Below are positions 2,255 through 63,729 of a DNA stretch of 64,000 bases, piece by piece (positions within the stretch are counted from its first letter, which is position 1; the number at the start of each line of letters is the position of its first letter). The translations under genes were made by a program, and so were the position numbers. The notes beneath the pieces are model-generated. The model saw only the letters and a list, made by a program, of their open reading frames with translations. It searched no databases and was not told where the DNA came from. Source of the DNA: Sphaerolaimus hirsutus (lineage: Eukaryota; Nematoda; Chromadorea; Monhysterida; Sphaerolaimidae); the NCBI GenBank assembly GCA_964036195.1, contig OZ038460.1:2731504-2795503 (forward strand). The letters run 5' to 3'.

Positions 2255-2935
2255 TAGGGTTGGAAAAAAAACGTTTTTTTTAACTCGATGTTTTTTTAAA
2301 AAAAAACAACGTTTTTTTTAAATAAAAAACTTTTTTTTTAAAAGCTCCCAGATATGACCTTGTGTCAACATATATAGGTATATCAGACTATGGCAATACT
2401 CTGTGATGTTATATATGACCATATAATGGCTGTTGAGCCATGGGATTGCATTATAAGTGGTAATTTGTGTCAAAAATATCCATTTTTTGTCAATACGTTT
2501 GTATATTGTCTTATAGTCAAATGTTCGTGACTTCAGGTAGAGTTTGGCACGGAATAGTGATGAAACAAGGTTATGAAAGGAGGTTGTTACTTTGAGAGTG
2601 AAGTTACACACTGTGGAGGTACATGGAAGCACATTACCTCAATATTATATACTACACCAACATATGACGGCTTATTAGCCCATGGTAGCATATATAAATG
2701 GATACTTTGATACTAAAAATGCCACAAAACCAATGAAAACAACCACCAATGTCAATTTGTGTGTGAAATTGCGCGCTTGCGTGCAAAAATTTTGCAAAAT
2801 ACCTAGTGCTTAGTACTAAAAATTTCGGTCGATGTTTTTTTGAAAAAACAAAAACATTTCGGACGTCATGTTTTTTTAAATAAAAAAACGTTTTTTTAAA
2901 TAAAAAACGTTAAAAAAAAACATCGGCCAACCCTA
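2255..2935. mobile_element. hAT-like element with AAAACGTTTTTT arrays
   Basis: Ends TAGGGTTGG and CCAACCCTA, flanked by a perfect 8-bp duplication GTATATAC (2247-2254 and 2936-2943). Both subterminal regions are arrays of AAAAACGTTTTTT-type palindromes. A GCGCGCTTGCGTGC motif is at 2771-2784. There is no transposase, so it is non-autonomous. Relatives: 35873-36575 and 36984-37676. Confidence 0.9.
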
Positions 2936-4036
2936 GTATATACCTAGTAGTATTTAGACATACGCGTTTTCAAAAATTAAAATACTAAATCAACCCCCCG
3001 GGGTTACTATTCCCCCATTTACTGTAGCGCTATTACCTTTACAATTTCCCCCCAGCTAACACAAATTGTAAACACTGTAGTAAAACAGAAATAAAATGGG
3101 AAGCACTTTTTGATTCAGATTTTTGCGTATATATTCAGGTGTTGTATACTTTTTTTGAGTCGGCAAAAAAAGGAAAGAGCCGCGAACACTCGTAAATGGT
3201 TGTATAGTTTTTGCACAGATATTTTCGTGTAAATAGTGAGGCAGGGGGAATGTTGTTTTTGCATTTTTTCACTTTTTTCTGGAGTTATGTTTTTTTTAGA
3301 GTCCACGCACACTAGTTGACATCGCAAATTCGTGTCAACTGAATATCAACTACATAACGCACAGAAATTTGAAAGCATCACACCGAACAGAAACAAAATT
3401 AAGTTAAGTGTCACGATATAAAATTAACTATGCTCTAAGCTGTAACTATCACGTAGGAAAATTGAAATAACATAAATATTAACCAAAATTTAGTTGAATT
3501 TAGTTGATACGAATTTCGATGTCAAATCGTTTGTGTGGGCCCAATAACGTTGAAATCACAAGTTTAACTTGAATTTTTTCAGCTTGTTAAACATAAATTT
3601 ACACAATGGACAAATTCCTGCGTGTCTGGAACAAATGAGCATATTCGAAATGACAGGGGGTGTAATTTTGAATTTCGAAAGCTTGCTTTCGGCGATGTGC
3701 TGTGGTGGGAAATAAATTTTGAAAATAAATGCGAAGATTAATTTTATAGGTTTTTTTTGAAGCATTAGTATCGTTTTAAAGGTTTTACTTCCAAAAAATT
3801 GAAAATAAAAATTAGCCAATAAATTTCTCTAGTTTGAAAAAACGTTTGAGAAATTTTTATGTAGATACTTTCCACTAGGCAAAACGTAAAATGAATGTTG
3901 GTTTACTTGAAACGTGAAAAAAAAATATAATTTTCTGTAAAGCCAGGAATCTTTTCAATTATATATCCACACAAAGCTTAGTGGGTTTTGCATTTTTGTT
4001 TATGTACATTTTGCTGGACATTTACGTTGATTCATG
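2936..4036. other. gene-free stretch
   Basis: AT-rich. A CCCCCGGGG block lies near 2994 and a CACACTAGTTGAC repeat end near 3307. Nothing else recognised. Confidence 0.4.
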
Positions 4037-4226
4037 TATACTCATGTGACTTTACACCTTGCATGTGTGGTTCCCGCTGGAAGCGCGCCAACGATATTTA
4101 GTGCAAGCAATTTTCATAAAAAGGGAAAAATCATTGCTGTTACATGAAAGTCCCAGTGTTACAAAGCAAACATAAATAATTTTTCTGTACTCAGATACTT
4201 TCTAAGGTATACTCAATCAGAGTATA
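4037..4226. mobile_element. TACTCGG/TATACTC-family element
   Basis: TATACTC and GAGTATA ends. The interior GGTTCCCGCTGGAAGCGCG matches, inverted, the interior of the element at 36619-36864. Probably a TA-inserting MITE. Confidence 0.5.
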
Positions 4227-6439
4227 GGTACCTGGGAGTATCTAAGTAGACATACCTTTCAAGTAAAAGTGAATACTTTTTAACAACTACTGAAATCACT
4301 GCTAGCTACATATTTATTGACTTGTCAGGTATATACTTACATGTGAGCTATAGAAGCATTTACAATTTTGCAATGATTTCTGCATGTACTTTTCGCTGTA
4401 AAATTATACTTTTTTATCCGAAAAGGGATTGGCTTGTGTGAGATTGTTTACAAAATGTTTAGTTGAAACAGTGGTCAAATTTAGTTCAAAATTGTTTAAA
4501 ATTTTTAAGTTTTCAAATTTACTCCAATTTTTATATTTCAATTATCTAAAATGTTTCCACAAATTGTTCCAATTCTGTTCAAAACAATCACCATTCTCTA
4601 AGCTCACTTGATTAGTAGATTGAGTTGACTATTTACTCAGTTGACAGTGGGTCTAAAATTCAACTTAACTGAAATATCCTCTGTATTTACACAAAACATA
4701 AACGTTCAAATTTCACTTCAGAAATAGCAGGTGCTTAAAATTGTAAAATAAAATAAAAAATATAATTTTTCAACCACATTCATAATTGCTTGTGTGCCAA
4801 ACGACAGGAAGCACATTCATCAAAAAATTTGAAAATTGAATATGAGAAAGCACCCGCTAGCCGCAGATTGACATGTGCGATTTTGAAGGTTTTTATTGTC
4901 GTTTTTAAAATTTAATGGCCCGATATAATTTATAAATTGATTCCGTTGTTTTGGTTTTTAAAATTCATGCGTAAAAAAATTGGTTTAAATAAAAATTGTA
5001 AAACGAGGGAAGGTTTTAGAAAATGTACAGACGTGTTTTATTTTGAGTAAGAAAACTTTTACAGAGGAATAGGGTTCCATATATTTATATTAATTTCTAA
5101 ATATATTGATATGAGATTTTTCCGCTGTTGACGACCATTTGGCGGTGGTCCAGCCGTCGACTGAATTTTTAAAAAATGGGTTTTAATTAACGCGGACAAT
5201 ATATTGTCCACGTGGACCATTGACAGCGGCCAAAAACGTCGCATTCCCGTCAACTAAACACGGGCTCGAATCAGATTTTTCAGTTGACTGCAAAGCGACC
5301 GTCAACTAGAATGCGAGGTCGCATTATTCGAATTTTCGACACAAAATCGTTGTAAACCTGAAAGTGTCCATACAAATCTCCATTTACCCCCGGAAGTAAA
5401 ATGGATAATTATTTTTTTACTATTGGTCGTTTTGTGGCTGACGTTTGTGAAAAGCGACATTATTTTGAAAATTGTGAAATTTTCGAAGCTACCTGATTTT
5501 TATTGTGGGCTGGCTGGGGGGTGTTAAATAAATGTGATGTGTTCCCGAATTGTGTTTTGTTTTAACTCCACAAGTGGATAAGTGGAAAAGTGCTAAGTCG
5601 AGTTGAATATAACTTAAAGTTAAAGTAAGTGGTAAATCAAGCACCATATTAACTTAAGTGACAAGTAAATTCATCAATCAATATGTATACCTAGTAGTGC
5701 TTGGTGCTAATAAGTGTACTTGTCGCTTAACTGAATAATTACTCCTTTTTACTTCAAACTGGTCACTTATCTTATCACTTGTCCACTTGTGGAATGAGCC
5801 CGTGATTTCCCTGTCAAACTTGCCAATGCGCATGTGCTCAAGATTTGAATACATTATAAAAGCACAAATGGCACATGAGCACATTATTAAAGCACAAATC
5901 GTCTAGTTACCCACAGATCAGCACTTTTATAAGCACGCTTATCACATACAATAAAATAAACACTTCATAAACGTTCATTTTCCGTTGGGGGGTCCGGTGG
6001 GGGGGGGGTGCCCATTTTTCGCAATGGACAGTTTCAAGAAAACCCATCAATTTCCAGATATTAATGGGCGACCACTTTTTCGGTGCGTTGCCGCGAATGA
6101 AATGCGCTATGCGTTTATATACAGAGGTCTTTGATAGATAGCGCCATTTATCAGTCGGGTATTTTGAGCAGACTTGACTGATGGGGGGCGTATTTTGGCC
6201 TAGTTTGTAAATTGGGGGGGGGGGGGTAGTTGGGTGGGGAAAATCACCGTGTTGTATTGTGCCTAAACAGACTACACACCAGTTTCAACCAAAATTGTGA
6301 GAACTGTGGAAGTTCTTGTTCTGTACCGTTTACCGGTATTTTCAGAATTGACCGTAATGTATCCTTTACCGGTTTTCCCCTGGAATTTTTGATTGTGTGA
6401 AATGATGCTCTGATATTAGCCGTTTTCTGAGTATTCATG
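4227..6439. other. gene-free stretch including an AAGTGAC-array repeat
   Basis: 5563-5800 has ends CTCCACAAGTGG and CCACTTGTGGAATGAG, with AAGTGAC/AAGTGG motifs on both flanks, the same architecture as the motif-array elements. 5990-6240 has several G-runs. A GTTGAC-type repeat lies near 5140-5310. No coding exon recognised. Confidence 0.4.
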
Positions 6440-6936
6440 CAGGGTTGTTCAAAGTACTGAACTTTTTTAAAAGTAAACGTAAACGTAAAGTATTTTTATT
6501 TTACTCACACATGCGTACAGAAGATGTAAAGTATTAAGTAAAGTATTTTATTTTTACTTTTACGCTGCGTAAAACGTGAGTAAAATACTTTTTTCCAGAG
6601 AAAACGTAAAAATGAGTATTTTTTCCAGGGAAAACGTAAAAACAAGTATTTTGCTCACAGACAAACGTAAAAGTGAGTATTTTTCTCATGAAATAACGTA
6701 AAAATTAGTGTTTTTTCTTCAATTTTTACTCTGAAATACGTCAAAGATGTGTTTTTCTCTCCTGATAAGTATTTCCGAGGAAAATGTCCTATGTTTGTCA
6801 CTTTCTGTCTGGCAAAATGACATTTTCTGTACCCTTGAAATACGTTTTCTGTACTCGCGTACTTTCAAAAAGTACGCGAGTATGTGTGTACGTTTAAACG
6901 TAATCGAGTAAATGTAAATACGTTTTAACAACTATG
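6440..6936. mobile_element. hAT-like element with GTAAACGTAAA arrays
   Basis: Ends CAGGGTTGTT and AACAACTATG. The flanks TATTCATG and TATTTCTG match at 6 of 8 positions, a decayed 8-bp duplication. Both ends are dense in AAACGTAAA motifs; the centre has AGTACGCGAGTA blocks. Same family as 14819-15274 and 23206-23661. Confidence 0.75.
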
Positions 6937-7667: not shown

Positions 7668-8220
7668 TGCCACGCGTGCTGCACTGCAGCCGGATACCCG
7701 ACTCAGTCAAAAGTCGGGTTAGCTCAAAAGTATTTGACCCGAGATGCCCGACAAGATGTCGAGTCAATTTTGACAAGTTGGCAGGTGATAAGAACGGTGG
7801 TGTGTGATAGTTGCAACTTAGGGATAAGTAGGACTACAAATTTTATCTATTGTCTGGCCCCGGTCGGGTTCAGGTTTTGACTAGAACTGAAAAGGGTTTT
7901 TTATAAACCCGACCGTATTTTTTTCGGGCAGCCTGATTCATTACGCTTTTGATTGATTTGATTGGCTTATTGTAAAATAGCGTTGACGATAATCAGAATC
8001 ACATTGATTTGCATGGCGGATAATTTCCGATCCAAGAAATAAGCCCGACAAAACACACACATATTTTGCGTATTCAGGAAAACCCAACGGTTTGTTTCAG
8101 CCAAAATACCCGACTTTCTCTCCGAAAATCTTTTCCGACCCGTGACCCGGATTCACTATTTTACGGGGATTCCGGGTCCGGGTCAACTTCGGGTCGCACT
8201 GCACTGCAGCGCGGCGCACC
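7668..8220. mobile_element. motif-array element with CCCGAC/GTCGGG repeats
   Basis: GCACTGCAGCCGG on the left and CACTGCACTGCAGCGCGG on the right, with many CCCGAC, GTCGGG and CGGGTC copies next to each end and plain AT-rich DNA between. Boundaries are approximate and no target duplication was found. Confidence 0.45.
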
Positions 8221-8940
8221 GAAAATATGGCCATTTTGGGATGGGGGTTATAAACTGTTTCATGCCTCTTCAAGGGTCTGTTGAGTAGCTTAAGCACAAT
8301 ATTTTGGCGTTTTATAGAGATTTGGATCGGTGCCAATTTTGTGTTTTTGTGGTGAGTGGCAGGGAAAGTGTTTAGGTAAAGTGACTTTTTATCAGATTTC
8401 TGACTGATTGGTTGTCATTTTGAATTACAAAAATTTCGATGTCTGAATGGTGTCGAGTGCAAAACTGGTAATTTAAGCCAAACGCTTTTTGTTTGTAAGC
8501 ATTTTGTTCGGGTAAAATGATTGAGTAGTAACAATGGTGCCACTATATTTCCAAACTCACTCAGAAATTCGTATTGTTTGTGTGGGGGGAACTCAGAAAT
8601 AGAATTTCAGAAGGTAAATCTCGAAAGACATTCTGGCAAATTCAATGGAGGGGGTATAATTTTGCACATAAAAACGCAGGCAAAAAAATCATTGAAAACT
8701 TTTTATCCACATAAAAATAACACCAAACACATCATTTTGGGGAGGGTGTGGCCTCCAGAAATCGCAGCCAATCAGCGTTTAGCGGCGACATTTTGCCGCG
8801 TGAAATCGGCCGGCAATTTTTATATGACCTCGCCGCCCCGCGCGCAATTTCACAGAATATTTTGCACAATTCATAATTCCTACCCCCATTTTCATTTTGC
8901 ACACCTGCCGCGTGTGCAAAATCGACTGGGGCATGGTTGC

Positions 8941-9048
8941 GAAAAAATATCTGGGTACGAAAAAGTATCTGGGTACGAAAAAGTATCTGGGTACGAAAAA
9001 GTATCTGGGTACGAAAAAGTATCTGGGTACGAAAAAGTATCTGGGTAC
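8941..9048. repeat. six tandem copies of an 18-bp unit
   Basis: The unit is GAAAAAGTATCTGGGTAC, repeated six times with a single variant in the first copy. Because 18 is a multiple of three it lies in a long open frame (8521-9138) that I do not regard as a gene. Confidence 0.9.
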
Positions 9049-9724
9049 GAAAGTATTTTTACCCTGATTCACTATTTTTCAGTGGGAAATATGAATTTCT
9101 TTAATTACTTTATTATGCAAAAGCACCTCCATGAGTAATTCATTGATCGTGAAGATTTTAAATACGTTCTTTTTTACAAATTTCCGAGTCAAAAGTAAAT
9201 ACTCTTCGTTTACGTATTCCCCAATAAAAATGTCTACTTTACATTTTGGTTATTTCTGGCAGTGAGTAAACTCTAAATACTCAACGTCTACATATAAAAT
9301 ACTTTGAAAACGGTGGGTACTTTGTAACAACTCTGGGGGCGGTTGGGTGATTATATTTTGTCGCGTATATTTATGTATTGTCGGCGCGCAGCGACCGATT
9401 ATGAAACGCTCATTTTATTATGGTATTTGGCGGCGATTTTTCCGGACATTGGCGGTGAATTTTTTGGACAAAATTGGTCGTTTTATTTTGGGAAATTGGA
9501 CAGTTGGATGGGGGGTTATTCGAGGGAAATTCGATGGAACGTTGACAAATGAAAGGCGGGGAATGAGAAACAAAAAAAAATGAAACAATTCAATGTAAAC
9601 ATACACACACTAATGCCCTGAATTTGACACAAAAAAAAATTTAAAAATAAAATTGCACAAAATTGGAACTAATGTGGTATATTTACAAGAAAATTATTTA
9701 GGACTGCCGACTATCGCCAACATG
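9049..9724. other. gene-free stretch
   Basis: A fragment of the GTAAACGTAAA hAT family ends at about 9333 (GTAACAACTCTG). After this, 9340-9600 is unassigned DNA with CGGCGCGCAGCGACCG. Confidence 0.4.
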
Positions 9725-10490
9725 TAGGGTGGCAGACGGTACGGCCTTGCGGTAAACCGTACTGTACGGTAAATTTTCCATTTTGCGGTAAACGGTACGG
9801 TACGGTAAATCTTCAATTTTGCGGTAAACGATACGGTACGGTAAATCTGAAAAGTGCGGTACGCGGTACGGTACGGTAAATTTCCGATTGTCAAAAATGT
9901 ATCAATGCCGGACTACATACAACTATTACTTCATAAATTGACACCAAATTCAATGCCACAATTTGATAAATGGACTTAAGAACACAATAACAGTATGATG
10001 ACATAAAATTCCATTACACACGATGTAGGGGCTCAATATATAGGTTTATTCAAGGTGTAGAAGGAAGAAAAGGAAAAAATATTGCTAAAAGTGGTGAAAA
10101 ATTGCTCAAAGTATGTGAAATTTACACTTTAAGAGTGTGTTGAAGCACATGGCTTGATTTTTTAAACACATTATACCGATGTAAATCATGACTTATATCA
10201 ATGAAATGAAACAGTGTTGTGAAATTTTCGCGCTTGCGCGCCAAAAAATTCAAAACACCACATTAATTGTCATCAATAAATTCAAGCATATTTAAGGTCA
10301 ATCTGAGTCAAATTTACCGCATTTTCTGCGGTAAATGAGTGCGGTACGCGGTACGGTATGGTAAATTTTGGAAAATGCGGTACGCGGTACGGTATGGTAA
10401 ATTTCTAAAAGTGCGGTAAACGGTACGGTACAGTACGGTAAATTTCCCAAAAATGCAGTACGGTACGGTACGGTAAATTCTGCCACCCTA
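9725..10490. mobile_element. hAT-like element with CGGTACGGTAAA arrays
   Basis: Ends TAGGGTGGCAGA and TCTGCCACCCTA, flanked by a perfect 8-bp duplication CCAACATG (9717-9724 and 10491-10498). Five or so copies of CGGTACGGTAAATTT-type motif sit at each end in inverted orientation. The middle is unrelated AT-rich DNA holding CGCGCTTGCGCGCC at 10229-10242. Non-autonomous. Confidence 0.92.
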
Positions 10491-13026: not shown

Positions 13027-16000
13027 GTGAGTTATTTTGGGGGGTAGGGTTTTTGGAGATTAAATTTGCCAGAAATATGATCGGGTGCTATCTGATCTGA
13101 ACATGGAATAGTAGCCAAAAATTTGCGTCGGGATAGATAGCTGAGTGGTTTTGGGGGGTGGACAGCCCCCCCAGCACCCCCATTGCATTGTACAGGGTTT
13201 GGGACTGGCATCTGGTCAGTGGTAATTATTTCAATGTAAACCACCGACCCCCCCAATTTGTGCAGTCAAGCTTTGCTGGCGTCATATGCAGCCTCGCGGA
13301 TGGCCCTTGGCGCCCCTTCGCTAGTGCTGCCTACCGCTACTAGTGCGAATGGTATGTTTTTGAGGCGGTTTTTTTATCTGGATTTTAGGTTTTTGGGGCA
13401 AATTTGACTCGAGCCGACTCGGTTTGAAAACAAAATCAAAATCAGATTGCGACTACCTACATTTGCGCGATTCCAATAATTGTGCGAATTCCAATATTAG
13501 AGTCGACTCAACCCGACGAGACAAAAGTTTTTTTGACCGCTTTATAATCCGCCAATATAAATTCCCGCAGCCACTACAGCGTCAACATCAAACGGACTTG
13601 GCACGCAGCCAGGTGGGGACACAAGTGGCCAAAGGAGAGAGGAGGCTCCATCACCAGCTGGATCTAGACCCCCTTCGAGGGCCGATTTGTCACCTATTGC
13701 AAGGTATTTTGGGGGTTCCATCTGTGAAACTCTGGAAAAGATCACTTTTATACTTTTTTCACATTTTTGAATGCATTTTCAACCGAAAAACACTTCAATA
13801 CACTTTCCCTCCCATCTCGCAGCCCTGAAACCGGCCGGCCCATCGGTCCCACGTCGCAAATCCTTGGCGCACCCCCCGCTGCACAGGGGGGTCCGCCCGC
13901 GTCTGGGGCACCCCCCACCGCCTCGTCGATGTACCACGCGTTTGCGCAGCAGCAACTAGCCGCCGCCGTGGCGGCTAATATGCGCCCTTCAGGTGGGCGG
14001 GGCTTGGGTTTTTGGATTTTTTTGGTTTTTAAAAAATGAGATTTTTTTAAAAGATGGATGCGGGTGAAATGGATTTTTTGCAGAAATTACCGCTGGTTAA
14101 TTACAAGTTGTAATGCTATTTATCTCATGGCTCAACAGATTTAATTTTCACAGTAGTCATGAAATAAGTTTTGTGCCGACTTGGTTATAGTCCAGTTTTT
14201 GGCCATTTTGGAGAAAGATCTTAATTTAATTTGATCAATTTACAAAATGGATTTTTTGCTAATGGAGCAGCTAACAACAAACGGTTTGATCTGATTTGAC
14301 CCATTCTCTCTTTATAAATGCCCCACTTTTTTAATATTTTCAAGAAGGACGACTGCTTTCTATTTTTAAATTCATTTATTTTTAATTTTCTTCAAAAAAT
14401 CACCCCCACCCCCAGGCGGGAACTCGTTCAACCCCCTAGCCTCGATGGCCCAGTTGCGTCTACCCCCCGCCGCCTCAGTGGCCCAGGTGGCCAGCGCCAT
14501 CGGGGGGCGACCCACAGCCAATGACCACCACGGGGGTGACCACAGGAGGGGCGGCCAGGGGGGTGCCCACGCGCATTTGCAGCAGGGGGTGGGCAGACCC
14601 AGGGGCGGGCGCCCTTTGAGTCAGCAACACGAGTCTAGGTGCGTTTTGGGGGGTCTTTACATTTGAGGATATTTTTTTCTGGTACGGTTTTCGGGAATTA
14701 TCGTTACCGCGGGAATTTACGTTAAAGTGCACAATTTTTTACGCCACTTTATCAGATTTCCGTCACGTTTTCTATATAGCATTCATGCCGTCAATATAAT
14801 TATGTGTGCTGTAGGTATCAGAGTTGTAAAAAGTAGTGAACTTTTTTCAAAGTAAACGTAAAGTATTTTATTTTTACTCAACCCTGAGTACAGAAAACGT
14901 AAAGTATTTTTTAAATACTTTTACACTGCGTAACACGTGAGTAAAATACTTTTTGTCAGAGAAAACGTAAAACTGAGTATTTTTTATCACAGAAAACGTA
15001 AAAATCAGAAATTTTGTCAATTTTTACTCTATAATACATCAATTTCATCCCCCGATAACTATTTCTTAGGAAAATGTCCTACTTTTGTTACATTCTGTCT
15101 GTCACAATGTTACCTATGTCCCGCTTAAATACGTTTTCGGTACTCGCGTACTTTCAAAAAGTACGCGAGTAAGTGCGTGCCGGTATTTTTTTCGGGAGGA
15201 AACGTATACGTATTTACGCAGTACTCGCGTATCCGTATTTATCGAGTAAACGTAAATACGTTTAAACAACTATGGTAGGTATGTGTGTATCTGTTAGTTG
15301 AATTCAAATTGTTTTGTTTTTCAATTGGTATCAAAATTTTCACCCTGATGATACATAAAAGGAAAAAATATGTTTTTGCGCAGTTGTAGTTTTGCACAGC
15401 TAGTTTTGCTAATTGAAATTTACATACACATAAACACGATTTACAAATAACTTTATACAATAAGGAAATAAAAAGCACTTATATTTTTAGCACTTATAAC
15501 TTTTATACACTTCCCCCCAAAAATCTCGCAGACGCGACCAACACCAGCGGAGATCCCATAAAAAGCCCAGTACGCACATTAAAAAACCGCTGAATGCGTT
15601 CATGATTTACATGAAAGAAAATCGAGCGAAATTGATGCAGGAGAGGGGTTATAAAGAGAGACAAAGCGCCGAGTTGAATAAGGAATTGGGAAGATTGGTT
15701 AGTTTTTCGGGTGTGAATTTACCGTACCGTACCGGTAAATGTCAAAATTTACCGGTAATGTGTATTGTAAATGATCGGTACGGTACAGTAAATCTTGGCA
15801 CTCCACTGCCTATTCTTCACATATCATTAAAAATTGCCGAGAGAGTTATATTTAAAAATATTTAATTTTCTCCTTGAGATTTTCTGAGATTTTTTAAAAT
15901 ATTATAAAAATATCGCATATTTAATTATGTCAGGGGTTTTTCGATAGCAATTTAAGTTATTTAACCATATTTTCTTTTTGAGGAATTTTCCGGGATAAAA

Positions 16001-19700: not shown

Positions 19701-19702
19701 GT

Positions 19703-23205: not shown

Positions 23206-23661
23206 CATAGTTGTGAAAACGTATCTACTTTTTAGTAGAAAAATACCGTTACTGAAGTACTGTGTAAATACGTTTACGTTTCCTCAGAAAAAAGTGTCAG
23301 TACTCGCTTTTACTTTTTTGAATACTCGGGTACAGAAAATATTTCAGATAGCCTTTTAAGTGAATATGCCAAAAATATAGAAAAATCGTCAAAAATGGGT
23401 ATATGAGCACATAAATAGCCAAAAATTGCCGAAGATACTCAAAAAGTTATGAAAATTAAAGCTTTTGAGCGACAATTTGGGTGCAATTTCTCAAAACTAC
23501 TCACGTTACGTTTTCAAGATGAAAAAGCATGTTTGCTCGTTTGTAAGAGTACAAAATACTTAACGTTTTCTGTACACAGGGGTGAGCAAAAAATAAATAC
23601 TTTACGTTTACGTCTGGTACTTTTAACTTAAATAAAAGGTTTGGATCTTTTAACAACTCTG
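23206..23661. mobile_element. hAT-like GTAAACGTAAA element (opposite orientation)
   Basis: Ends CATAGTTGTGAAAACG and TTAACAACTCTG. Flanks CTTTAGCA and CTTTAGTA match at 7 of 8 positions. Interior as in 14819-15274. Confidence 0.82.
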
Positions 23662-30849: not shown

Positions 30850-31735
30850 GTCCGTATTTTGTGAGTCTGCATCAAAATCCAAACAGCATAATTCAAACAA
30901 CAAGTACAGCAAAATCCAAACAAAAGTGCAGCATAATCCAAACAGAATTCATTTTCCAAAGTTAAGCATAATCCAAACCAAAATAGGGCAAAATCCAAAT
31001 GATGTGCACATCATTCAAGCAATTTTCCTCAATGAAATGAGCACCACTCTATTTTCTGTTCTTAAATCCATTTTCTTTTGATGTAATGTATCCCTTATGT
31101 GATGCAATTTGAATTAGATAACCTGCAAGTGGATCTGTGTGTGTCCCATATTGCATTGCAGGTGGATAGAGGAGAATGATAATGGGAAACAACTTAATGG
31201 GAAAATGACTTGGGTTGTATTTAGCGACTGCGCAACCTGGGGGCAGTCCCAAGCCCTGTAAAGTGTAAAGTAAAGTGTCAAATGTAAAGTCAAATGCAAA
31301 GTAAAGTGTCAATTAAAACAAAAAAGAAAAGATTTTATTAATTACTTTTCATGACAATTGACACTTTACTTTGCATTTGACTCTACAGTTGACACTTTAC
31401 TTTACACTTTACAGGGCTTGGGATTGGCTCCTGGTGAGTTTTTGCCATTGTTGCAACTCCCTTCAGTGGTTGTCAAAATGAGATCTTTTGGCAATGTAAA
31501 TGATGAGAATCTTTTTTAAATAATATTACACACATAAATATTTACACTATACATCAATTGCAGCACCATACATACACAAATGCACAAGAATAGGCTACAT
31601 CGGTGTTTGGATTATCCCTCAGTTCTGTTTGGATTATGCTGCAGTTTCAGGCACAAAAAGTGTTTGGATTATGCCTCACTTTTGCTTGGATTATGCCTAC
31701 TTGGATTATGAGCATTTGGATTTTGAGCTTTCCCC
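30850..31735. mobile_element. motif-array element with GCATAATCCAAAC repeats
   Basis: About eight GCATAATCCAAAC or GCAAAATCCAAAC copies lie at 30870-31000, and about seven inverted GTTTGGATTATGC copies at 31605-31730. A GTAAAATG MITE (31236-31434) sits between the arrays. Ends and target duplication not resolved. Confidence 0.7.
31236..31434. mobile_element. GTAAAATGTC MITE nested in the GCATAATCC element
   Basis: CCTGGGGGCAGTCCCAAGCC and GGCTTGGGATTGGCTCCTGG are inverted ends. AAAGTGTAAAGTAAAGTGTC repeats on both arms allow the whole unit to fold back. Confidence 0.75.
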
Positions 31736-35872: not shown

Positions 35873-36575
35873 TAGGGTTGGCCGATGTTTTTTTTTAAAC
35901 GTTTTTTATTAAAAAAAAACGTTTTTTTTAAAAAAAAAACACGACGTCCGAAATGTTTTTTTTTAAAAAAAACATCGACCGAAATTTTTAGTACTAAGCA
36001 CTAGGTATTTTGCAAAATTTTTGCGCTCAAGCGCGCAATTTCAGACACAAATTGACATTGGTGGTTGTTTTAATTGGTTTTGTGGCATTTTTAGTATCAA
36101 AGTATCCATTTCTATGTGCTACCATGGGTTAATAAGCCGTCATATGTTGCTGTAGTATATAATATTGAGGTAATGTGCTTCCATGTACCTCCACAGTGTG
36201 TAACTTCACTCCCAAAGTAACAACCTCCTTTTATAACCTTGTTTGATCACCATTCGGTGCCAAACTTTACCTGAAGTCACGAACATTCGACTATAAGGCG
36301 ATATACGAACGATATGTCGACGAAAAATGGATATTTTTGACACAAATCACCACTTATAATGCTATCCCATGGCTCCACAGACATTATATGGTCATATATA
36401 ACATCACAGAGTATTGCCACTGTCTGATATACCTATATATGTTGACACAAGGTCATATCTGGGAGCTTTTAAAAAAAAACGTTTTTTATTAAAAAAAACG
36501 TTTTTTTTAAAAAAAAAACGTTTTTTTAAAAAAAAAAACATCGAGTTAAAAAAAAACGTTTTTTTTCCAACCCTA
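35873..36575. mobile_element. hAT-like AAAACGTTTTTT element, left arm only
   Basis: TAGGGTTGGCCGATG to CCAACCCTA, with a perfect 8-bp duplication TACCGTAA (35865-35872 and 36576-36583). The right arm has the empty site (a single TACCGTAA, inverted, near 51990). Interior matches 2255-2935 inverted. Confidence 0.93.
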
Positions 36576-36983: not shown

Positions 36984-37676
36984 TAGGGATGGCCAAAAAA
37001 CGACCCTGTTTTTTTAACGAACCTGTTTTTTTATATAAAAACGTTGTTTAAAAAAACGTGTTTTTTTAAATTTTGGGAGGTTTTTTTTAAAAAGCTCCCA
37101 GATATGGTTATGGGTCGACATATACAGGTATATCAAACAATTGCTAGTACTTTGTGATGTTATATATATAGCCACAGAATGGCTGTGGAGCCATGGGATA
37201 GCATTATAAGTGGTGATTTCTGTCAAAAATATTAATTTTTTTGTCAACTTGTTACGTATACTGCCTTTTGTCGAATGTTTGAGACTTCAAGTCAAGTTTT
37301 GCATGGAATAGCACTTATACAAGGTGATAATATCAGGCTAATCCATTGACAGTGATGTATCACACTGTACAGCTATATGGGGGCACATTGGCTGGATATT
37401 ATATACGACACTAACATATCACGGCTTATTTTGACACAATAGCATGAACAAATGGAAGGTTTCACACTAAAAATGCCTCAAAACCAATGAAAACAACCAC
37501 CAATGGTAATCGGCATGTGAAATTGCGCGCTTGCACGCAAAAAAATTGCAAAATACCTAGTGCTTAGTACAAAAAATTTTGGCTGCCGTTAAAACTAAAA
37601 TAAAAAAACGTTTTCGATGCCTCTGTTTAAAAAAAAACGTTTTTTTTAATGGTTAAAAAAACACCGGCCATCCCTA
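36984..37676. mobile_element. hAT-like AAAACGTTTTTT element without target duplication
   Basis: TAGGGATGGCC to GGCCATCCCTA; interior aligns with 2255-2935. Flanks GCTGGAGG and ATTGCAAG do not match, suggesting deletion or recombination at one end. It sits where the two palindrome arms stop matching. Confidence 0.75.
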
Positions 37677-41477: not shown

Positions 41478-42938
41478 CAGGGTTGGTTTTAGTAAAATTC
41501 TTTTTACTAAAATTCTTTTTACTAAAATTGTATTGTATGTTTTTTATTCTTCAATGTTCCATTTTATTTTTATTTTTTTCTTTAATTTTTCATTTTACTG
41601 TTATTTTATTTTTACTTTTTATTTTAGTTCGTCACCAGGATTGGTCTTAGTAAAATTCTTTTTACTAAAATTGTAAACACCTTCCCGGTCACGTCCGGCA
41701 CCCATTTTTTGATTTTACTTCTCACATCCTATCCCCAGTTCTAGGGCACCCCAGAGGCTGAAACTTGGGGGAGATATTGGCGCAACCCCCCTCTACTTCG
41801 CATGAATTGGGGGGATCGCTGCGACCCCTCTCAGGGTGGGTCGCCCTAAGTGCAAAATTTTTTTTGGCTTTTTTGGTGTCCCACAGCAGGTCCGGCACCC
41901 GCTGATTTCTGAGCTGTGGGAGGAGTATAAATCTAAAATTTTGGGGATGTGTTACCAACACCACTCCCCTACTGTACACTATTCAAAAATGTGAGATCTA
42001 TGCAAAAAAATTTCTCAAAAATTCGCTTATTCTCTAAAAAAAACACCACTCCCCAATAGATGGATGACAAAAAATTAACTTTTTGGAACTTTTTTTTAGA
42101 CACTTGAAGAGATGGTTTACAATACTTTAAAGGGAAGGGTTTGATGTTTAAAGTTACGTAAAGAACCATACCTCTAAAATGCCTGCATTGCAAAATTTAA
42201 TTGGGGGGAATTTCAAAGTGTAAATTTTGTAAATTTTTGTTCCTGCAATGATGTCATTATGATGTCATAAAATTCGCCCTAAGTAAATTTTGTAATGCAG
42301 GCATTTTAGAGGTATGGTTCTTTACAAAACTTTAAACATCAAACCGTTCCCTTTAAAGTATCGTAAACCATCTCTTCAAGTGTCTAATAAAAAAGTTCCA
42401 AAAAGTGATTTTTTTGTCATCCATCCATTGGGGATTGGTGTTTTTTAAGAGAATAAGCGAATTTTTGAGGAAATTTTTCACATTTATTTCACATTATTGA
42501 ATATTGTATAGTAGGGGAGTGGTGTAGGTAACACATCTCCAAAATTTTAGATTTATACCCCTCCCACAGCTCAGAAATCAGCGGGTGCCGGACCTGCTGT
42601 GGGACACCAAAAAAGCCGAAAAAATGTTTGCACCTAGGGCGACCCATGCTGAGAGGGGTTGCCGCGACCCCCCAAATTCGTGCGAAGTAGAGGGGGGTTG
42701 CGCCAATATCTCCCCCAAGTTTCAGCCTCTGGGGTGCCCTAGAACTGGGGATAGGATATGAGAAGTAAAATCAAAAAATGGGTGCCGGACGTGACCGGGA
42801 AGGTGTTTATTTTCTTATATAAAAATTGTATTTTATTTTTTTTACTGTTTAATTTTCTATTTTATTTTAATTTTATTCTTCAATTATCCATTTTATTTGG
42901 TTTTATTTTTATTTTTTTCTGAGATTTTGCCAACCCTG
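41478..42938. mobile_element. hAT-like CAGGGTTGG element with AAAATTCTTTTTACT arrays
   Basis: CAGGGTTGGTTTTAG to TTTTGCCAACCCTG with flanks GTCATGAG and GTCATGGG (7 of 8). Ends are arrays of ACTAAAATTCTTTTT and ATTTTATTTTTATT. Right-arm partner 46216-46549, flanks CCCATGAC and CTCATGAC. Confidence 0.85.
41676..42807. mobile_element. 1.1-kb foldback element, left arm only
   Basis: Almost the whole element is an inverted repeat: AACACCTTCCCGGTCACG to CGTGACCGGGAAGGTGTT, arms about 500 bp or more, centre near 42240. TA on both sides (41674-41675 and 42808-42809). The right arm is empty (near 46340). No long open frame. Confidence 0.9.
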
Positions 42939-44331: not shown

Positions 44332-44498
44332 TAGTGATGGAATGGCGCCATGGCGCCACTGGCACGGCACTTGCGCACTTTTTCTGACATTCGACAATTT
44401 ACAAGGTCTGGGAGTGGCCTCTGGATGTCGCTGTGGCACCATTGGCGCATGGCGCCATTTTTTGATTGGCGTAATTTTTCTGGCGCTTTCCCATCACA
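44332..44498. mobile_element. TGGCGCCA element in the palindrome spacer
   Basis: TAGTGATGGAATGGCGCC to TGGCGCTTTCCCATCACA. The TAGTGATG/CATCACA ends link it with the GGCACC family (62786-63729). ATGGCGCCATGGCGCCA palindromes lie at both ends. Confidence 0.6.
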
Positions 44499-46104: not shown

Positions 46105-46936
46105 CAGAGTTGTTAAAACTACCAAACTTTTTTTCAAAGTATACGTAATGTATTTATTTTTTACTCTCCCCCTGAGTAAAAAAACGTAAAGTAATTTTTT
46201 TCTTTTACCCATGACCGGGGTTGGCAAAATCACAGTAAAAATTTAAAATAAAATTAAAATAAAATGGATAATTGAAGAATAAAATTAAAATAAAATAGAA
46301 AATTGAACAATAAGAAAAATAAAATACAATTTTAATAAAAATAAAATACAATTTGAGTAAAACGAATTTTACTAAGACCAATCCTGGTTACGAACTAAAA
46401 TAAAAAATAACAATAAAATAACAATAAAATGAAAAATCAAAGAAAAATAAATAAAATGGAACATTGAAGAATAATAAAATATACAATACAATTTTAATAA
46501 AAATAAAATACAATTTTAGTAAAAAGAATTTTACTAAAACCAACCCTGCTCATGACTAAACAGGAGAAACGTACTATTTCTTGGGGAAAACGTAAACATG
46601 AGTATTTTTAAGAAATGTCACCCCAATTTTTGTTCAAAATCACAAATTTTGGTTACTTTTTGCCTATTTTAAGCAATGTTTTTCTACATTATTTACATAT
46701 GCTTATACACATTTTCGACTATTTTCATTATTTTTAGCATATTCTCTACCTTTTCCCCTCTATGCCTTCAAAAAATCTATATAAAAGACTATCTTATATA
46801 CGTTTTCTGTACTTGAGTACTTTCGAAAAGTATACCTAAATGTGAGTACAGGAACACATTTCGGAGGAAACGTAAACGTATTTACTCTGTACTAGAGTAT
46901 TTATCGAGTAAAAGTAAACACATTTGAACAACTATG
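46105..46936. mobile_element. AGTTGTT hAT-like element (right arm) with one nested element
   Basis: CAGAGTTGTTAAAAC to TTGAACAACTATG; flanks GTTGGCGG and GTTGATAG (6 of 8). It holds the CAGGGTTGG element 46216-46549 but not the MITE or foldback seen in the left arm. Confidence 0.82.
46216..46549. mobile_element. CAGGGTTGG element with AAAATAAAATAC arrays (right arm)
   Basis: CGGGGTTGGCAAAATC to AAACCAACCCTG. Most of its 334 bp is a run of AAAATAAAATAC-like motifs. Flanks match at 7 of 8. Partner of 41478-42938. Confidence 0.82.
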
Positions 46937-49093: not shown

Positions 49094-49529
49094 GGGGATG
49101 GTCCGGCCGTAAAGTAAACCCGGCCGTAAAGTAGACGGTGCTACTTTAGGCCGGGCATCATTACGGCAGAGTTGTTTAAAGTACTGAACGTTTTTCAAAG
49201 TAAACGTAAACGTAAAGTATTTTATTTTTAGTCACACCTGAGTACAGAAAACGTAAAGTAAAAATTTTCTACATTTACGCTGTGTAAAAGGTGAGTAAAC
49301 GTAAATATCTTTAAATACTCGTTTTCTGTACTCGCATACTTTCGAAAAGTACGCGAGTAAGTGAGTACCAGTATTTTTTCGGGAGAAAACGTAAACGTAT
49401 TTACGCAGCACTCGACTATACGTATTTATCGAGTAAACGTAAATACCTACGTTTGTACAACTATGCATTATTGTACAACTATGCATGATTTACTTTACGG
49501 CCGGGTTTACTTTATGGCCGAGATCTCGC
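49094..49529. mobile_element. Mutator-like MITE with a 10-bp duplication, right arm only
   Basis: Ends GGGGATGGTCCGGCCG and CGGCCGAGATCTCGC-like inverted repeats continue through GTAAAGTAAACCCGGCCG. Flanked by CATCATTGTG on both sides (49084-49093 and 49530-49539); the left arm has it once, near 38900. A duplication of 9-11 bp is typical of MULE elements. Its interior holds the hAT-like element 49167-49465. Confidence 0.8.
49167..49465. mobile_element. AGTTGTT hAT-like element nested in the MULE-like MITE
   Basis: CAGAGTTGTTTAAAG to TGTACAACTATG, GTAAACGTAAA arrays at both ends, flanks CATTACGG and CATTATTG (6 of 8). Confidence 0.72.
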
Positions 49530-50656: not shown

Positions 50657-50663
50657 TCATCAA

Positions 50664-51683
50664 TAGTGATGTAAAGGCACCGGGGCACCGGTGCCCCGGT
50701 GCTGGGCACCGAAGGGCACCAGCACCGGTGCTGGTGCGGTGCCATTGCAATCTTCAGGGGTGCCATGCCGGTGCCGGTGCCATTTTTTTCAGAATAGCAC
50801 CGGTGCCGGTGCGGTGCGGTGCCATTTTTTTGCCGGTGCCAAAGGTGCTAGCACCAGGGCCAAAGTAAACGCACCGGGAAAGGCACCGGCCAAAGGCTTC
50901 ATTTCATGTGCTGTGCAATTTTGTCCATAGTATGTGCTTATTCATATTTCAAAAAACAGCGATATATTTACCCAACCGTTTTTGCCTATTTTGTAAACCT
51001 TCCATCAAAAAAATATACCTACTGTGAAATCCATTATACCCGATACGTGATCTGATGAGCGAATCTAAAATTTTGTTGAATTTCAAAAAAATATACCTAC
51101 TGTGAAATCCATTATACCCGATACGTGATCTGATGAGCGAATCTAAAATTTTGTTGAATTTTTAATCATTTTTATATTTTATATTTATCTTACTTGTTTG
51201 TTCAAAATTTGTTGTCAGTTTATGACAGAGATAGTTCCATTCTCTGTACAGCAACGACTCCGATCAGTAGACAAAAGTGGCTATGGACATTGCAGTGAAT
51301 TAAATATTTTATCTTTCATTTGTAATCATTGTAATTGCTTCATAAAAGTGATTGCCACATCATTCTGATCATTTTAAGTGCTCAACCATCAAAATCGGTT
51401 GAAAATTCATGGAAATATGCACTTCCAACGGTGAGACCACTGAGAAACTGCCCGATATTTACTTCAGAAATTCCAGCCCGGTGCGGTGCCTTTCGGTGCT
51501 AGCACCGGCAACCCGCCGGTGCCCTTCGGTGCCGGTGCCATTTTTTCCAAAAGGCACCGGTGCCGGTGCGGTGCGGTGCCATTTTCTGGCCGGTGCCCCA
51601 GGGTGCCAGGTGCCCTTTTCATGCGTTGGCAAAGGTGCCGGTGCGGTGCGGTGCCATTTTTCCCGGTGCCTTTAACATCACTA
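50664..51683. mobile_element. hAT-like GGCACCGGTGCC element, copy 1
   Basis: TAGTGATGTAAAGGCACCGG to GGTGCCTTTAACATCACTA. Both ends are arrays of GGTGCCGGTGCC and GGTGCGGTGCGGTGCC; the interior is AT-rich. Nearly identical to 62786-63729 but with no matching target duplication (ATCATCAA and GTCAGAAG) and an internal 78-bp duplication. Confidence 0.88.
51006..51161. repeat. 78-bp tandem duplication inside copy 1
   Basis: The unit starting CAAAAAAATATACCTACTG occurs twice, at 51006 and 51084, without visible change. Copy 2 of the element has one unit. Confidence 0.9.
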
Positions 51684-53237: not shown

Positions 53238-53370
53238 TACTTATTTTTAGCTATTTTCACCAAATTTTTTTGGCGATTTGTTCCCCTGTTCTTCTTTCTA
53301 CACATTGGAAAAGCCTATATATTGACCCCAGCGAACACCCCCTCCAAAAAATGGGGGTAGAGGCGGGAGC

Positions 53371-57644: not shown

Positions 57645-59202
57645 TTAACCTCACATATCACAGACTGATCTCCAAATGCACATGTGATGATGATAAACGA
57701 TAAATATTACAGCCTTTTTGAAGACCACTCTGCAAAACATGAAGCTGAAATCTGAGTTGACACAAACCAGTTGACACACATGCGTCAACTATTGTGTAGA
57801 CATTTTTATGACACTTCATTTTGCGTCAATCGACAAGCTGCAATCGACCTTGTCCAACAAAATGTGCCGTCCCACTATTTCTGAAACACCCTCAGTACGT
57901 CACATTTTCACGCGCAAATGTAGAAACAACCTGGAGTGGAGACAAATAAGCATATAACAAAAATGGGTAGATAAAACCGAGAGTTTGTCATGCGTGATGT
58001 GCGCCTGCGCTGGTAGGAATTAAGTACCCAAGCAAACGCAGCGTGTGCGTGCGCAAAAAAAGTTGCAAAATGGTAAGCATATTTTTGGTAACTGTTCAGA
58101 GCAATTCATTTTTGCACAAACTGGAAGGTTCCGAAATGGTGAACCAGGCCAACTACAAGTTGACACAAAATTGTCTGGGTGTCCTTCGGCACTATTTTCA
58201 TCATTGTCCGCCAACCGCTATGTTTGTCAGTGTTCTTACGATTTTACGCGTTTTGGCACGCAGCCAGCTGTGCCCTTTATTGGGGGTACGCCTTTTATTT
58301 TATTCAAAAAGTGTACCTTCAATTAGTGGATAACTTTTATTGGAGGTATGCCTACAAATAGATGTAACACGATATGATTTTGCACAGGTGCTTTTGCACA
58401 CACAAATAAAATGGCACCCACCTATTTGCAAATAGAGAAAATGTGCCACATGTCTCAGCGAATGTGAATGCAAAAAAAGATTTGTTAACAGGTGGCTAGC
58501 AATGTTTCATGGAACAGTGCCTTTATACCTACCTATCTACATATATATTTATGTATATTAAAATATACGCATATTTATGTAAAAAGATTTTTTGTATTAT
58601 GGTAGTGTCTGGCTATTTTAGATTCAAGTTTTTAGGTTTAAGAAAATTAAGACAAAAATAATTTCACTATTTCAATAATGTCTAATTGATATTTATTTGA
58701 CTTACGCCATTTTCTAAAATAGTCAAGTACCTGATGATCAAGTGATAAGTGAGTGGTAAAAGTAAAGCTGCAATTTGTAATCGAAATGGAACATGACTTT
58801 CAGGTGAAAAGTAAATATTTCTATCTGCAAATTTACTTGTCACTTTGAAAAGTCTACTTGTCACGACCTATCACATACAGCTTTACTTGTCACTTTTCTG
58901 TCACTTGACAGCCCATGACAGTGTATCCAGAATGCGGAATTTTCTTGGATGTGCATTAAATATAACGTTATTATGCAAATATCCCATACCATATTATATG
59001 CGGTGGATGTGAAATGTGAATGTCGCATTATGAAGGATGTTAATTGTTTTGTCAAATCCTCGGGAAAGTGCTGGAAAAGCTTCACAATTTGAATGTTTCC
59101 GTGGGATTTGTAACTTTACAGGGCACTTTCAAAAATGTGAACCCAAAACAAATTATTATTAGTGAAACATGAAAAGCAAAAAGCACCTCAAAAAGTTAAA
59201 TC
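57645..59202. other. gene-free stretch with an AAGTGAC-array repeat
   Basis: 58690-58920 has CAAGTGATAAGTGAG on the left and TTACTTGTCACTT copies on the right, an inverted array. An open frame at 58043-58333 (96 codons) has no recognisable domain. The rest is unassigned. Confidence 0.4.
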
Positions 59203-59637
59203 TACCATATTTCCTCGAAATACCCCCCCCCCCCCCACTCGAAATACCCCCCTCAAAATGGACACTATGAAATAATTAGCCACCCCCTCGAAATACCCCC
59301 CCCTAATTGTATGTAAAGGGAACATACATGACTAAAGCTGCGGTTTGTGATCCGGGCAATGCAGAACAGACGTTAAAAAGAACCACTGTGTTACGTTAGA
59401 ACCTTTTTATAATTACCATCTACATACTTATGTAAGTGTATAGACTCTATTAAATTGTGTTTATTGGTGTATTTTTCGACGTCTGCGTACGTAACAAAAG
59501 ACAAATTTGTACTCGGATTTCAAAGAATTTCTGGCGAAATAATAACCCCCCTCGAGATACCCCCCTCGTTTAACCCCCCCTCAAAATTCTCACCCTGAAA
59601 CAATCACCCCCGGGGGGTATTTCGAGGAAATGCGGTA
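59203..59637. mobile_element. CCGTATT MITE, long A type (inverted orientation)
   Basis: TACCATATTTCCTCGAAATA to GAGGAAATGCGGTA; C-runs through the left half and CGACGTCTGCGTACG inside, as in 32507-32942 inverted. Confidence 0.8.
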
Positions 59638-59825
59638 GTCTGAATTTAAACCACCTATAAATAAATATTTCATCCATGACTCAGCTCAGCAGTCGGCATG
59701 ATATAATGTAAAATATTATAGCAAATCCATGCAAATGACCACGCAAATGCAAATGCAAATGCGCATTTCCCCATTTTCTGTACAATTGCACCAAAAATTA
59801 GACATCACGTTTCAATGTGAAATGG

Positions 59826-61275: not shown

Positions 61276-61426
61276 CAGAGTTGTTAAAGTACCGAACTTT
61301 TTCAATATATACGTCAACGTATTCGTCTTTAACTAACCGCTGAGTACAGAAAATGTGAGTAAATATTTTCAATGAGTAAACGAGTAAAACACTTTTTTCA
61401 CGGAAAACGTAAAAGTGAGTATTTTT

Positions 61427-62509
61427 CAGTGTTGCAAAAATGTAATTTCATTTACCCAAAATACCCAGGTATTTCAGTCCTTACGTATCCTTACGTTTAC
61501 GTTTACATTTTCCAAAAATACCATTATGTTTTGTTACGTTTTCCTGATGGAAATACCCAGGTACCAGAGAATATGTAGAAACATTCCCAATAATGTGCGA
61601 TATGATGGGTGTAATTTTATTGTAGTGAAATTTGTCATTTTCATGGAATCCAGGTGATTATTTTGCCTTAAATACACAACTTTTCACAACTTTGAATGTC
61701 ATAGTGCTGGGACACTTAGAAGTAGCAAATGGCATGATAAAGCATTAGATTATTTGTGGTTAGAATCAGATGTGCACTGGGATGTCCACACGCTTTCCAT
61801 GGGAGCAGTATATAGGAGCCTTTTTACCTATGGCGGGACTAGGTAAGGTCCACTTCGTTCCCGGTAGTAAAAAAGGGTGATTATGGTAGGTAAAATTTCC
61901 GGAAAGTGTCCTTTCCGGAAATTTTACCTACCATAATCACCCTTTTTTACTATAATACCGGGAACGAAGTGGACCTTACCTAGTCCCGCCATAGGTTAAA
62001 AGGCTCCTATATACTGCTCATGGGTTTTGCACAGAAGTCTACTGTGTTCCATCTGACTAATGAACATAAAATCTACCTAATATTTTTCAATGGTTTTGCA
62101 ATGAACATATTTAAATCAAGTATTTATACATTTGAAAAGGAGTTATTAATCAGATTCAATTACAATAAGGTGTAATTTTTGCTTGATTTTTATGCTTATC
62201 TCATCATGGTTTGTGTGCAACATTATCATTTTGTTAAAATCGTCCCACTCGATGCTGTTGGTGATGAAGTAAATGAAGTGCTAAAAACTTGAAAATATTG
62301 CATAGAAATCAGGGATTGACCAATCTAAACGTGAAAAGATGAAATTCTCCAAAGCTTTATGGCAAATACCACACATAAAATTTTACGTTTATGTTTTTTA
62401 CACTTTCATTGGTATTTTAAAAATACCTTACATTTTAATATTTATTCTTTAAATTTGAAACGGTATTACATTGACATTTTCCAAAAATACCGTTATATGG
62501 ACAACACTG
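61427..62509. mobile_element. nested CAGTGTTGC element with AAAATACC/TTACGTTTAC arrays
   Basis: CAGTGTTGCAAAAATG to ATGGACAACACTG. TTTACCCAAAATACCCAGG-type motifs on the left, TTTTCCAAAAATACCG on the right. The flanking 8 bp do not match cleanly. The centre holds a near-perfect hairpin (61803-62020). Confidence 0.6.
61803..62020. repeat. near-perfect hairpin of about 218 bp
   Basis: GAGCAGTATATAGGAGCC at the left end is exactly complementary to GGCTCCTATATACTGCTC at the right end. Pairing continues through GGACTAGGTAAGGTCC and AAATTTCCGGAAAG, with one small indel near AATACCGG and a loop of a few bases near 61908. No coding content. Confidence 0.92.
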
Positions 62510-62785
62510 ATTTTTGAGATATTTCACACCAGTTATCACCCAAACTCACAAAATTTCATAACTTTTTGCCCATTTTTACCTCAAAATTCACCAGTTTGTG
62601 TGCCTTTTGCTTTTTCTAAGCTAGTTTATCTATTTTTCCCTAATTTTTTTTATTTTTCTCCCTTTTCTCCCTTCTGTCTTGAAGTAGCCTATCTCAAATA
62701 CGCCTTCTCAAGTACTCAAGCCTGTACTCAAGTACTTTCAACAGTAAATGTAAAAGCATGTAACGTAAATGCATTTACTCAGTAC

Positions 62786-63729
62786 TAGTGATGTAAAGGC
62801 ACCGGGGCACCGGTGCCCCGGTGCTGGGCACCGAAGGGCACCAGCACCGGTGCTGGTGCGGTGCCATTGCAATATTCAGGGGTGCCATGCTGGTGCCGGT
62901 GCCATTTTTTTCAGAATAGCACCGGTGCCGGTGCGGTGCGGTGCCATTTTTTTGCCGGTGTCAAAGGTGCTAGCACCAGGGCCAAAGTAAAAGGCACCGG
63001 GAAAGGCACCGGCCAAAGCTTCATGTGCTGTGCAATTTTGTCTGTAGTATGTGCTTATACATATTTCAAAAAACAGCAATTTATTTACCCGACTGTTTTT
63101 GCCTATTTTGTAAACCTCACATCAAATAAATATACCTACTGTGAAATCCATTACGAGCGATGATGATGATACTGATGGATGAGCGAATCTAAAATTTTGT
63201 TGAATTTTAAATCATTTTTATATTTTGTATTTATCTTACTTTTTTGTTCAAAATTTGTTGTCAGTTTATGACAGAGATAGTTCCATTCTCTGTACAGCAA
63301 CGACTCCGATCAGTAGACAATAGTGGCTATGGACATTGCAGTGAATTAAATATTTTATCTTTCATTTGTAATCATTGTAATTGCTTCATAAAAGTGATTG
63401 CCACATCATTCTGATCATTTTAAGTGCTCAACCATCAAAATCGGTTGAAAATTCATGGAAATATGCACTTCCAACGGTGAGACCACTGAGAAACTGCCCG
63501 ATATTTACTTCAGAAATTCCAGCCCGGTGCGGTGCCTTTCGGTGCTAGCACCGGCAACCCGCCGGTGCCCTTCGGTGCCGGTGCCATTTTTTCCAAAAGG
63601 CACCGGTGCCGGTGCGGTGCGGTGCCATTTTCTGGCCGGTGCCCCAGGGTGCCAGGTGCCCTTTTCATGCGTTGGCAAAGGTGCCGGTGCGGTGCGGTGC
63701 CATTTTTCCCGGTGCCTTTAACATCACTA
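62786..63729. mobile_element. hAT-like GGCACCGGTGCC element, copy 2
   Basis: TAGTGATGTAAAGGCACCGG to GGTGCCTTTAACATCACTA, with a perfect 8-bp duplication CTCAGTAC (62778-62785 and 63730-63737). Almost the same sequence as 50664-51683, so transposition was recent. Non-autonomous. Confidence 0.95.

Follow-up and report, generated by a model that had tools for sequence, protein, structure and literature searches.

Private subterminal motif arrays in hAT-like transposons of the nematode Sphaerolaimus hirsutus, and their concerted change in one family

A window of 64,000 nucleotides from the nematode Sphaerolaimus hirsutus (the whole stretch analysed here, contig C16:2731504-2795503 of a 348-Mb assembly with 762 contigs) was examined for short transposons that carry, near their ends, arrays of one short motif private to each family. 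Our results revealed that these elements have short hAT-like ends, 8-bp target-site duplications (TSDs) and arrays which mostly run in the same direction at both ends, that pieces of hAT transposase lie in four such families of the genome, and that in one family the motif has changed coherently, in register, at nearly all of its sites. We propose, with a probability of roughly 0.7, that they are mainly non-autonomous members of several radiated hAT families, and that the private arrays are putative docking sites of each family's own transposase, following the shifts of its specificity. The window elements in question are listed here, with TSDs given as matching positions out of eight.

2255..2935, + strand: family A, a hAT-like miniature inverted-repeat transposable element (MITE) with ends TAGGGTTGG, the palindromic motif AAAACGTTTT (AAAACGTTTTTT) at both ends and TSD GTATATAC (8/8)
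35873..36575, - strand: second copy of family A, in opposite orientation to 2255-2938 at 91% identity; TSD TACCGTAA (8/8)
36984..37676, + strand: diverged third copy of family A, ends TAGGGATGGCC, 75% identity to the first copy; no TSD was seen on direct reading of its ends
9725..10490, + strand: family B, ends TAGGGTGGCAGA; CGGTACGGTAAA arrays as 36-bp units, same direction at both ends; TSD CCAACATG (8/8)
62786..63729, + strand: family C, ends TAGTGATG, motif GGCACCGGTGCC, GGCACCGG/GGTGCC arrays; TSD CTCAGTAC (8/8); nested in a family D element
50664..51682, + strand: second copy of family C, 92-97% identity to the 62786 copy, with a 78-bp internal tandem duplication; no TSD by direct reading and scan
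44332..44498, + strand: family F, motif TGGCGCCA, a partial or diverged member of the TAGTGATG/GGCGCC sub-family; no TSD by direct reading and scan
14819..15274, + strand: family D, ends CAGAGTTG/CATAGTTG, motif GTAAACGTAAA; TSD GTAGGTAT (8/8)
23206..23661, - strand: family D copy; TSD 7/8
6440..6936, + strand: family D copy, ends CAGGGTTG/CATAGTTG; TSD 6/8 (weak alone, as at 49167, since a relaxed scan lists non-element pairs at 6/8 too)
49167..49465, + strand: family D copy, missing from the earlier list; TSD 6/8
61276..63787, + strand: family D copy; TSD CTTTGCAC/CTTTGCGC (7/8); two nested insertions, a foldback (61803-62019) and family C (62786-63729)
41478..42938, + strand: family E, ends CAGGGTTGG, motif AAAATAAAATAC, AAAATAAAAT arrays; TSD GTCATGAG/GTCATGGG (7/8); foldback insertion at ~41675-42820
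46217..46548, - strand: family E, the 41478 insertion again, inside an inverted duplication and without the foldback; left boundary set by eye
30863..31735, + strand: family H, motif GCATAATCCAAAC, ends GAGTCTGCATC / GGGGAAAGCTC; inverted AATCCAA arrays; nested MITE at 31235-31435

The first-pass annotation had proposed at least eight element types built on one plan. Families A to E and H were confirmed as elements, and regions G and I (see below) were not. By its sequence F belongs with C, as a partial member of the family that shares C's ends; the F end at 44332 matches two genome loci exactly over 25-26 bp (L045:9338-9362 and L047:1831-1856). Most of the copies listed in that annotation were found again. 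The family D site at 40709 is an end fragment only, and the one at 46216 repeats the 41478 insertion, from which it is not independent because the inverted match of ~91% takes in the flanks. The large inverted segmental duplication itself pairs 38413-41675 with 46347-50298 (~88-96% identity in pieces, with a 4.7-kb centre), and the foldback at 41659-42824 is absent from the partner.

hAT ends follow the consensus [TC]A..G. Short terminal inverted repeats (TIRs) of this type were found in families A to E and in the TAGGGTGTCAA, TAACGATGG and TAGGGTTCAAAC families, each of which had an 8/8 TSD in at least one copy when the 8-bp duplication was tested (for family E, the copies in L035 and L042). 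The readable duplications were of 8 bp as first claimed, with 8/8 in A (2255, 35873), B, C (62786), D (14819) and the resolved genome copies of H. A scan of the window for an exact 8-bp duplication beside ends with at most one mismatch in 10 gave 7 pairs, against a mean of 0.5 in 12 shuffles; four of them are the elements at 2255, 9725, 35873 and 62786, and those at 42133, 50774 and 56506 are not among the named elements. When the TIR/TSD scan was run on the window and 35 genome loci (268 kb), 89 matches were obtained, whereas controls in which the second duplication had been shifted by 9 or 17 bases gave 16 and 39; matches and controls alike include inner matches of arrays. In an earlier scan of 14 larger genome regions, low-scoring candidates (~18.5-20) were present in most of the regions and were taken as chance.

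In most window families the motif lay mainly in the outer 200 bp; for example, ACGTTTT occurred at 15/kb in the ends of the family A copy at 2255 and at 1.25/kb window-wide. Of the 58 high-confidence matches (one of which is an inner match, window 2307-2912), 48 had a common 6-mer in three or more copies at each end, compared with 11.7% of control pairs of the same spacing. In most high-confidence elements the array word was found at both ends and was rare in the centre. L024 and L025, near neighbours on one small contig, were both kept in the TIR/TSD, array and orientation counts.

The arrays had been described as inverted, and this did not hold. With orientation words picked after the arrays had been seen, 41 of the 49 elements had both arrays in one direction, 1 had them in opposite directions and 7 were ambiguous, and same-direction arrays were the majority in each of ten families. 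In family B, ACGGTA occurred 8 times forward and never in reverse at each end. Nine of the 58 matches fell outside the ten families: four of family A with its palindromic word, the inner match, and four of the CAGGGACGTA type without a clear array. Several motifs are palindromic, so that orientation is meaningless for these arrays.

Family H is the inverted case. Its window copy has AATCCAA 5 times forward on the left and 6 times reverse on the right, and its TSD is not intact (4/8). A genome search with the nested MITE included mainly returned the MITE, and it was therefore repeated with the left array of H only. Of seven genome copies fetched, four were resolved, with 8/8 TSDs in all four; the arrays were inverted in six of the seven, and L077 shows the left array alone. 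The MITE nested in H (31235-31435) is palindromic with AAAGTGTCAAATG arms, and 39 further genome matches of ~200 bp were seen for it among the 40 candidates scored out of 1,972.

The evidence that carries our explanation furthest comes from the CAGAGTTG family, to which the window elements with motif GTAAACGTAAA belong by their ends and motif. CAGAGTTG-ended elements align in register and fall into three sub-classes, AACGTA, AGCGTA and AGTGTA, in which the backbone is kept and ~13 motif sites across both ends differ. When 13 sites were read, L042 had AGCGTA at 13/13, L046 had AGTGTA at 12 and one AATGTA, and six others had AACGTA at 11 or 12, their fourth motif site being one base shorter. Between L046 (AGTGTA) and L040 (AACGTA), 24 of 25 variable motif columns differed while 51 of 52 other motif columns agreed, with a backbone identity of 82.9%; the backbone identity of L042 and L046 was 90.0%.

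This coherence was also seen in a wider sample of copies. A register-anchored pattern that left free the varying letters of three left-end sites (TTTTTGGAAANNGTAANNGTAANNGTAAATA) gave 3,843 matches in the genome and 0 for its reversed control. In the first 100 of these, all on contig C1, 86 triads were homogeneous (39 AC, 25 GC and 22 GT), compared with 12 expected under independence and a maximum of 29 in 20,000 shuffles. Triads with GC or GT at all three sites numbered 2,048. The class was then compared between both ends in 17 small regions together with the earlier loci, which made 27 rows, of which 13 were not resolved and 14 showed both ends with a TSD (8/8 in every case). The commonest class was identical at both ends in 14/14 resolved elements (5 AC, 5 GC and 4 GT), one GT element having a mixed left triad. 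By site, the class agreed at 90/93 on the left and 77/79 on the right, in a census that counts only A[AG][CT]GTA words. Because L001-L008 (L003 and L004 being one same element) had been chosen by the AACGTA word, and the left-end triad had been used to select L051-L067, a free test of class agreement is given by the right ends alone. Concerted change of the array in the CAGAGTTG family, as the first-pass annotation had supposed for the arrays in general, is thus strongly supported at both ends and ~13 sites. In the TAGGGTTCAAAC family (CGATAT, CGGGAT, CGGGAC) and the TAGTGATG family (GGCACC, GGCGCC), where the alignment is looser, a further two or three steps suggest that concert may extend to both; a separate pattern (3,603 matches) is tied to the CGGGAT class and does not test concert.

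The same comparison bears on whether concert is merely copying, that is, whether one end was recopied onto the other by gene conversion or end duplication. The left and right arrays do have their word in common, and here and there also a short flanking stretch. However, when the varying letters were masked, the same end was 0.80-0.95 alike between classes, whereas the likeness between the two ends of one element was 0.31-0.36 when both were read on one strand and 0.38-0.49 when they were compared as inverted copies. The sites have thus changed in place, each end keeping its own backbone through the switch, and recopying is the least probable of the alternatives we weighed. A mutational bias acting on all motif copies, such as CpG decay or strand-biased deamination, is nearly as improbable. 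It would account for AGCGTA and AGTGTA differing as CG and TG at 13/13 sites, and the non-motif CpGs in the compared ends of L042 and L046 were kept at only 3 of 8. Nevertheless, decay predicts TG and CA alike, and this is a poor fit to the data: each of the 13 motif CpGs in L042 corresponds to TG in L046, with no CA among them, while the 5 changed non-motif CpGs gave 3 CA, 1 TG and 1 gapped. Furthermore, AACGTA and AGCGTA differ by A/G outside the CpG, and the other families differ otherwise.

A somewhat better, though still unlikely, alternative is that the arrays are plain tandem-repeat growth by slippage or unequal exchange in hAT-like MITEs, with accidental words that have no role in transposition. 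Tandem-repeat scoring does pick up the arrays of A, B, E and H, those of B as 36-bp units at both ends, and in 10 of the 58 high-confidence matches no 6-mer reaches three copies at both ends. Such growth does not sit well with CAGAGTTG sites that lie in a fixed backbone and differ by the same base at nearly all ~13 positions of both ends, nor with a word that, in most high-confidence elements, stands at both ends and is rare in the centre. Microsatellite growth alone was rejected as the main cause on account of this in-register change.

That the arrays belong to hAT elements is indicated by transposase remnants. The pattern GTAAACGTAAACGTAAA was counted 1,462 and 1,411 times on the two strands of the genome, against 12 and 9 for the reversed pattern. 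The hAT dimerisation domain (PF05699) had 28 genome matches, a lower bound, which were covered by 14 larger regions and 17 3-kb loci; 22 lay inside elements with such ends and arrays (10 of CGGAAA, 7 of TTCGAA, 3 of ATATCG and 2 of AACGTA). Five of these 22 depend on a 7/8 TSD, L017 and L018 share one element, and the nested element of L050 (score 19.5), the weakest assignment, was retained for its ends and motif. The families with private arrays at PF05699 regions were TAGGGTGTCAA with AAACGGAA, TAACGATGGCAA with TTTTCGAA, TAGGGTTCAAAC with ATATCGA and CAGAGTTG with AAACGTAA. The elements that were read carry C-terminal remnants, and one open reading frame (ORF) piece of the CGGAAA family matched the Hermes transposase in a PDB search (E 2.5e-8). 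A tree was built from 20 of these 28 short pieces, leaving out L018, L020, L023, L025, L027, L030, L032 and L033. It placed the four families in separate groups, with local support of 0.86-0.99; for L011 and L016 the family label came from ends or arrays in the vicinity and not from a closed element. The matches outside such elements were L011, L016, L020, L027, L031 and L035, that of L011 lying inward of a single CAGAGTTG end of the window type. Related hAT families with private arrays, as initially postulated, are supported by such pieces in four families, among them CAGAGTTG/AACGTA; no intact autonomous element was found.

L023 and L030 also have their match inside a C-type element, but in each case it belongs to another element nested there. 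TAGGGTGTCAA-type elements with different target duplications were seen inside C-type (TAGTGATG) elements at L030 980-2108 and, more weakly, at L050 4696-5755.

We therefore return to the docking-site explanation. Each family has short hAT-like ends, 8-bp TSDs and, in the outermost ~200 bp on either side, a private motif array that usually keeps one direction at the two ends. The tip would be the cleavage site and the array would confer specificity, being bound by the DNA-binding part of the family's own transposase. A one-base shift in the specificity of a transposase lineage would be followed by the ~13 sites of both ends, each in place, and the outcome would be sub-classes which retain backbone and ends and carry the new word nearly everywhere; a possible driver is escape from competing non-autonomous copies. 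That the arrays are putative transposase-binding sites we infer by analogy with Ac, Herves and Hermes, and selection to follow a shifted transposase is the probable cause of the coherent change. An arms race with non-autonomous partners, as proposed before, is a hypothesis compatible with these results. More tentatively, the chain AACGTA, AGCGTA, AGTGTA, with CGATAT, CGGGAT, CGGGAC in a second family, may represent transposon speciation by recoding: one-base word shifts would rewrite ~13 sites in place, each founding an amplified class that no longer shares the old transposase and perhaps escapes non-autonomous copies. The joint change of a transposase and its binding sites poses an open problem, since all of the sites have to follow the protein. 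Thousands of copies of near classes that differ by single letters in one genome make the steps, intermediates and their order countable, and the binding prediction is testable with short oligonucleotides.

Several points weigh against this explanation. Within the CAGAGTTG family, 14 of the first 100 triads were mixed, 4 of them at the first letter, and the class copies share descent, so that the two concerted steps represent few independent events. One TAACGATGG element was the one scored as inverted, beside the seven with ambiguous orientation. No PF05699 match among the 28 was placed in family A, B, C or E, and no full-length transposase or BED-hAT gene was found. A BED-finger search of the genome gave 8 matches, 6 of them within one 22.6-kb stretch of C1 and none shown to sit in a hAT element; in the four BED loci cut out, only isolated end-like words were seen, paired ends not being sought there. 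Whereas A to E have hAT traits, the ends of H (GAGTCTGCATC/GGGGAAAGCTC) are unlike hAT, and H, G and I were not placed in that superfamily; at G (7668) and both I regions (5563, 58690) the TIR/TSD search gave chance-level candidates only. From other systems, the passages cited describe maize Ds-like elements with hexamers that are not moved by Ac (PMC3260210), inner putative BED sites of Hermes whose mutation did not strongly lower transposition (PMC10368747), and subterminal sites of piggyBat that can inhibit (PMC11707139).

The six clustered BED matches at C1:7466186-7488779 (L068-L070) are perhaps a repeated multi-BED host gene. The regions of the window that were not confirmed as elements are:

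7668..8215, no strand: G region, scattered GTCGGG/CCCGAC motifs, with only short matches to the ACCCGA arrays of the L040 outer family
5563..5800, no strand: first I region, inverted AAGTG motif
58690..58930, no strand: second I region, inverted AAGTG motif

Outside its HMG-box ORFs the window is repeat-dense. A family search of ORFs placed an HMG box split over two of them (15500-15865 and 15982-16287) and assigned no family to two further ORFs. We take the HMG-box ORFs at 15500-16287 to resemble nematode POP-1/TCF, and presumably a C-clamp-like stretch follows downstream at ~16.3-16.6 kb. A tRNA scan and an Rfam scan of the window gave no hits. Foldback-like elements with long inverted arms, 91-99% complementary, lie at 41659-42824, 52320-53239, 53716-54393 and 61803-62019. 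A window-abundant family with TACCGTATTTCCTCGAAATACCCCC ends and GGGGGG/CCCCCC runs occurs at 19296-19700, 32507-32942, 39367-39811, 47851-48198, 59238-59638 and elsewhere, and an 18-bp tandem repeat (6.3 copies, 98% matches) at 8940-9052.

Among known systems, one close likeness is to Ac/Ds of maize. In the passages cited, Ac transposase binds AAACGG subterminal repeats, and the elements have 8-bp TSDs, short ends, hexamer repeats in the outer 200 bp and non-autonomous partners, some sharing just the ends and a few hexamers (PMC3260210). The AAACGGAA of the TAGGGTGTCAA family here contains Ac's hexamer. Unlike Ac/Ds, many families with different words occur here in one genome, and there are sub-classes recoded at nearly all sites. 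No description of sub-families that differ by an in-register switch of their subterminal motifs was met in the literature searched, although one may be in print.

The BED domains of Hermes are described as binding AAG(T/C) subterminal repeats, arranged unlike at the two ends, and our own reading of that account is that the repeats have opposite senses when each end is read inwards, that is, direct on one strand (PMC10368747). The mostly uniform array direction may relate to this asymmetry, and the CGGAAA-family transposase piece matches Hermes. However, the arrays here are dense and of one word, no BED domain was found with the elements here, and the inner sites of Hermes are, in the part cited, largely dispensable. 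In Anopheles, the Herves transposase was reported to bind one short subterminal motif, CG/AATTCAT, at both ends (PMC3143072); that is a single family, whereas several are seen here. For hAT-derived CGG-binding proteins, the text cited states that related DNA-binding domains favour different 8-mers and that four hAT proteins have motifs with matches in the subterminal parts of their own elements (PMC8097297). That work concerns the protein side only, whereas in S. hirsutus the site side is seen, and in one genome.

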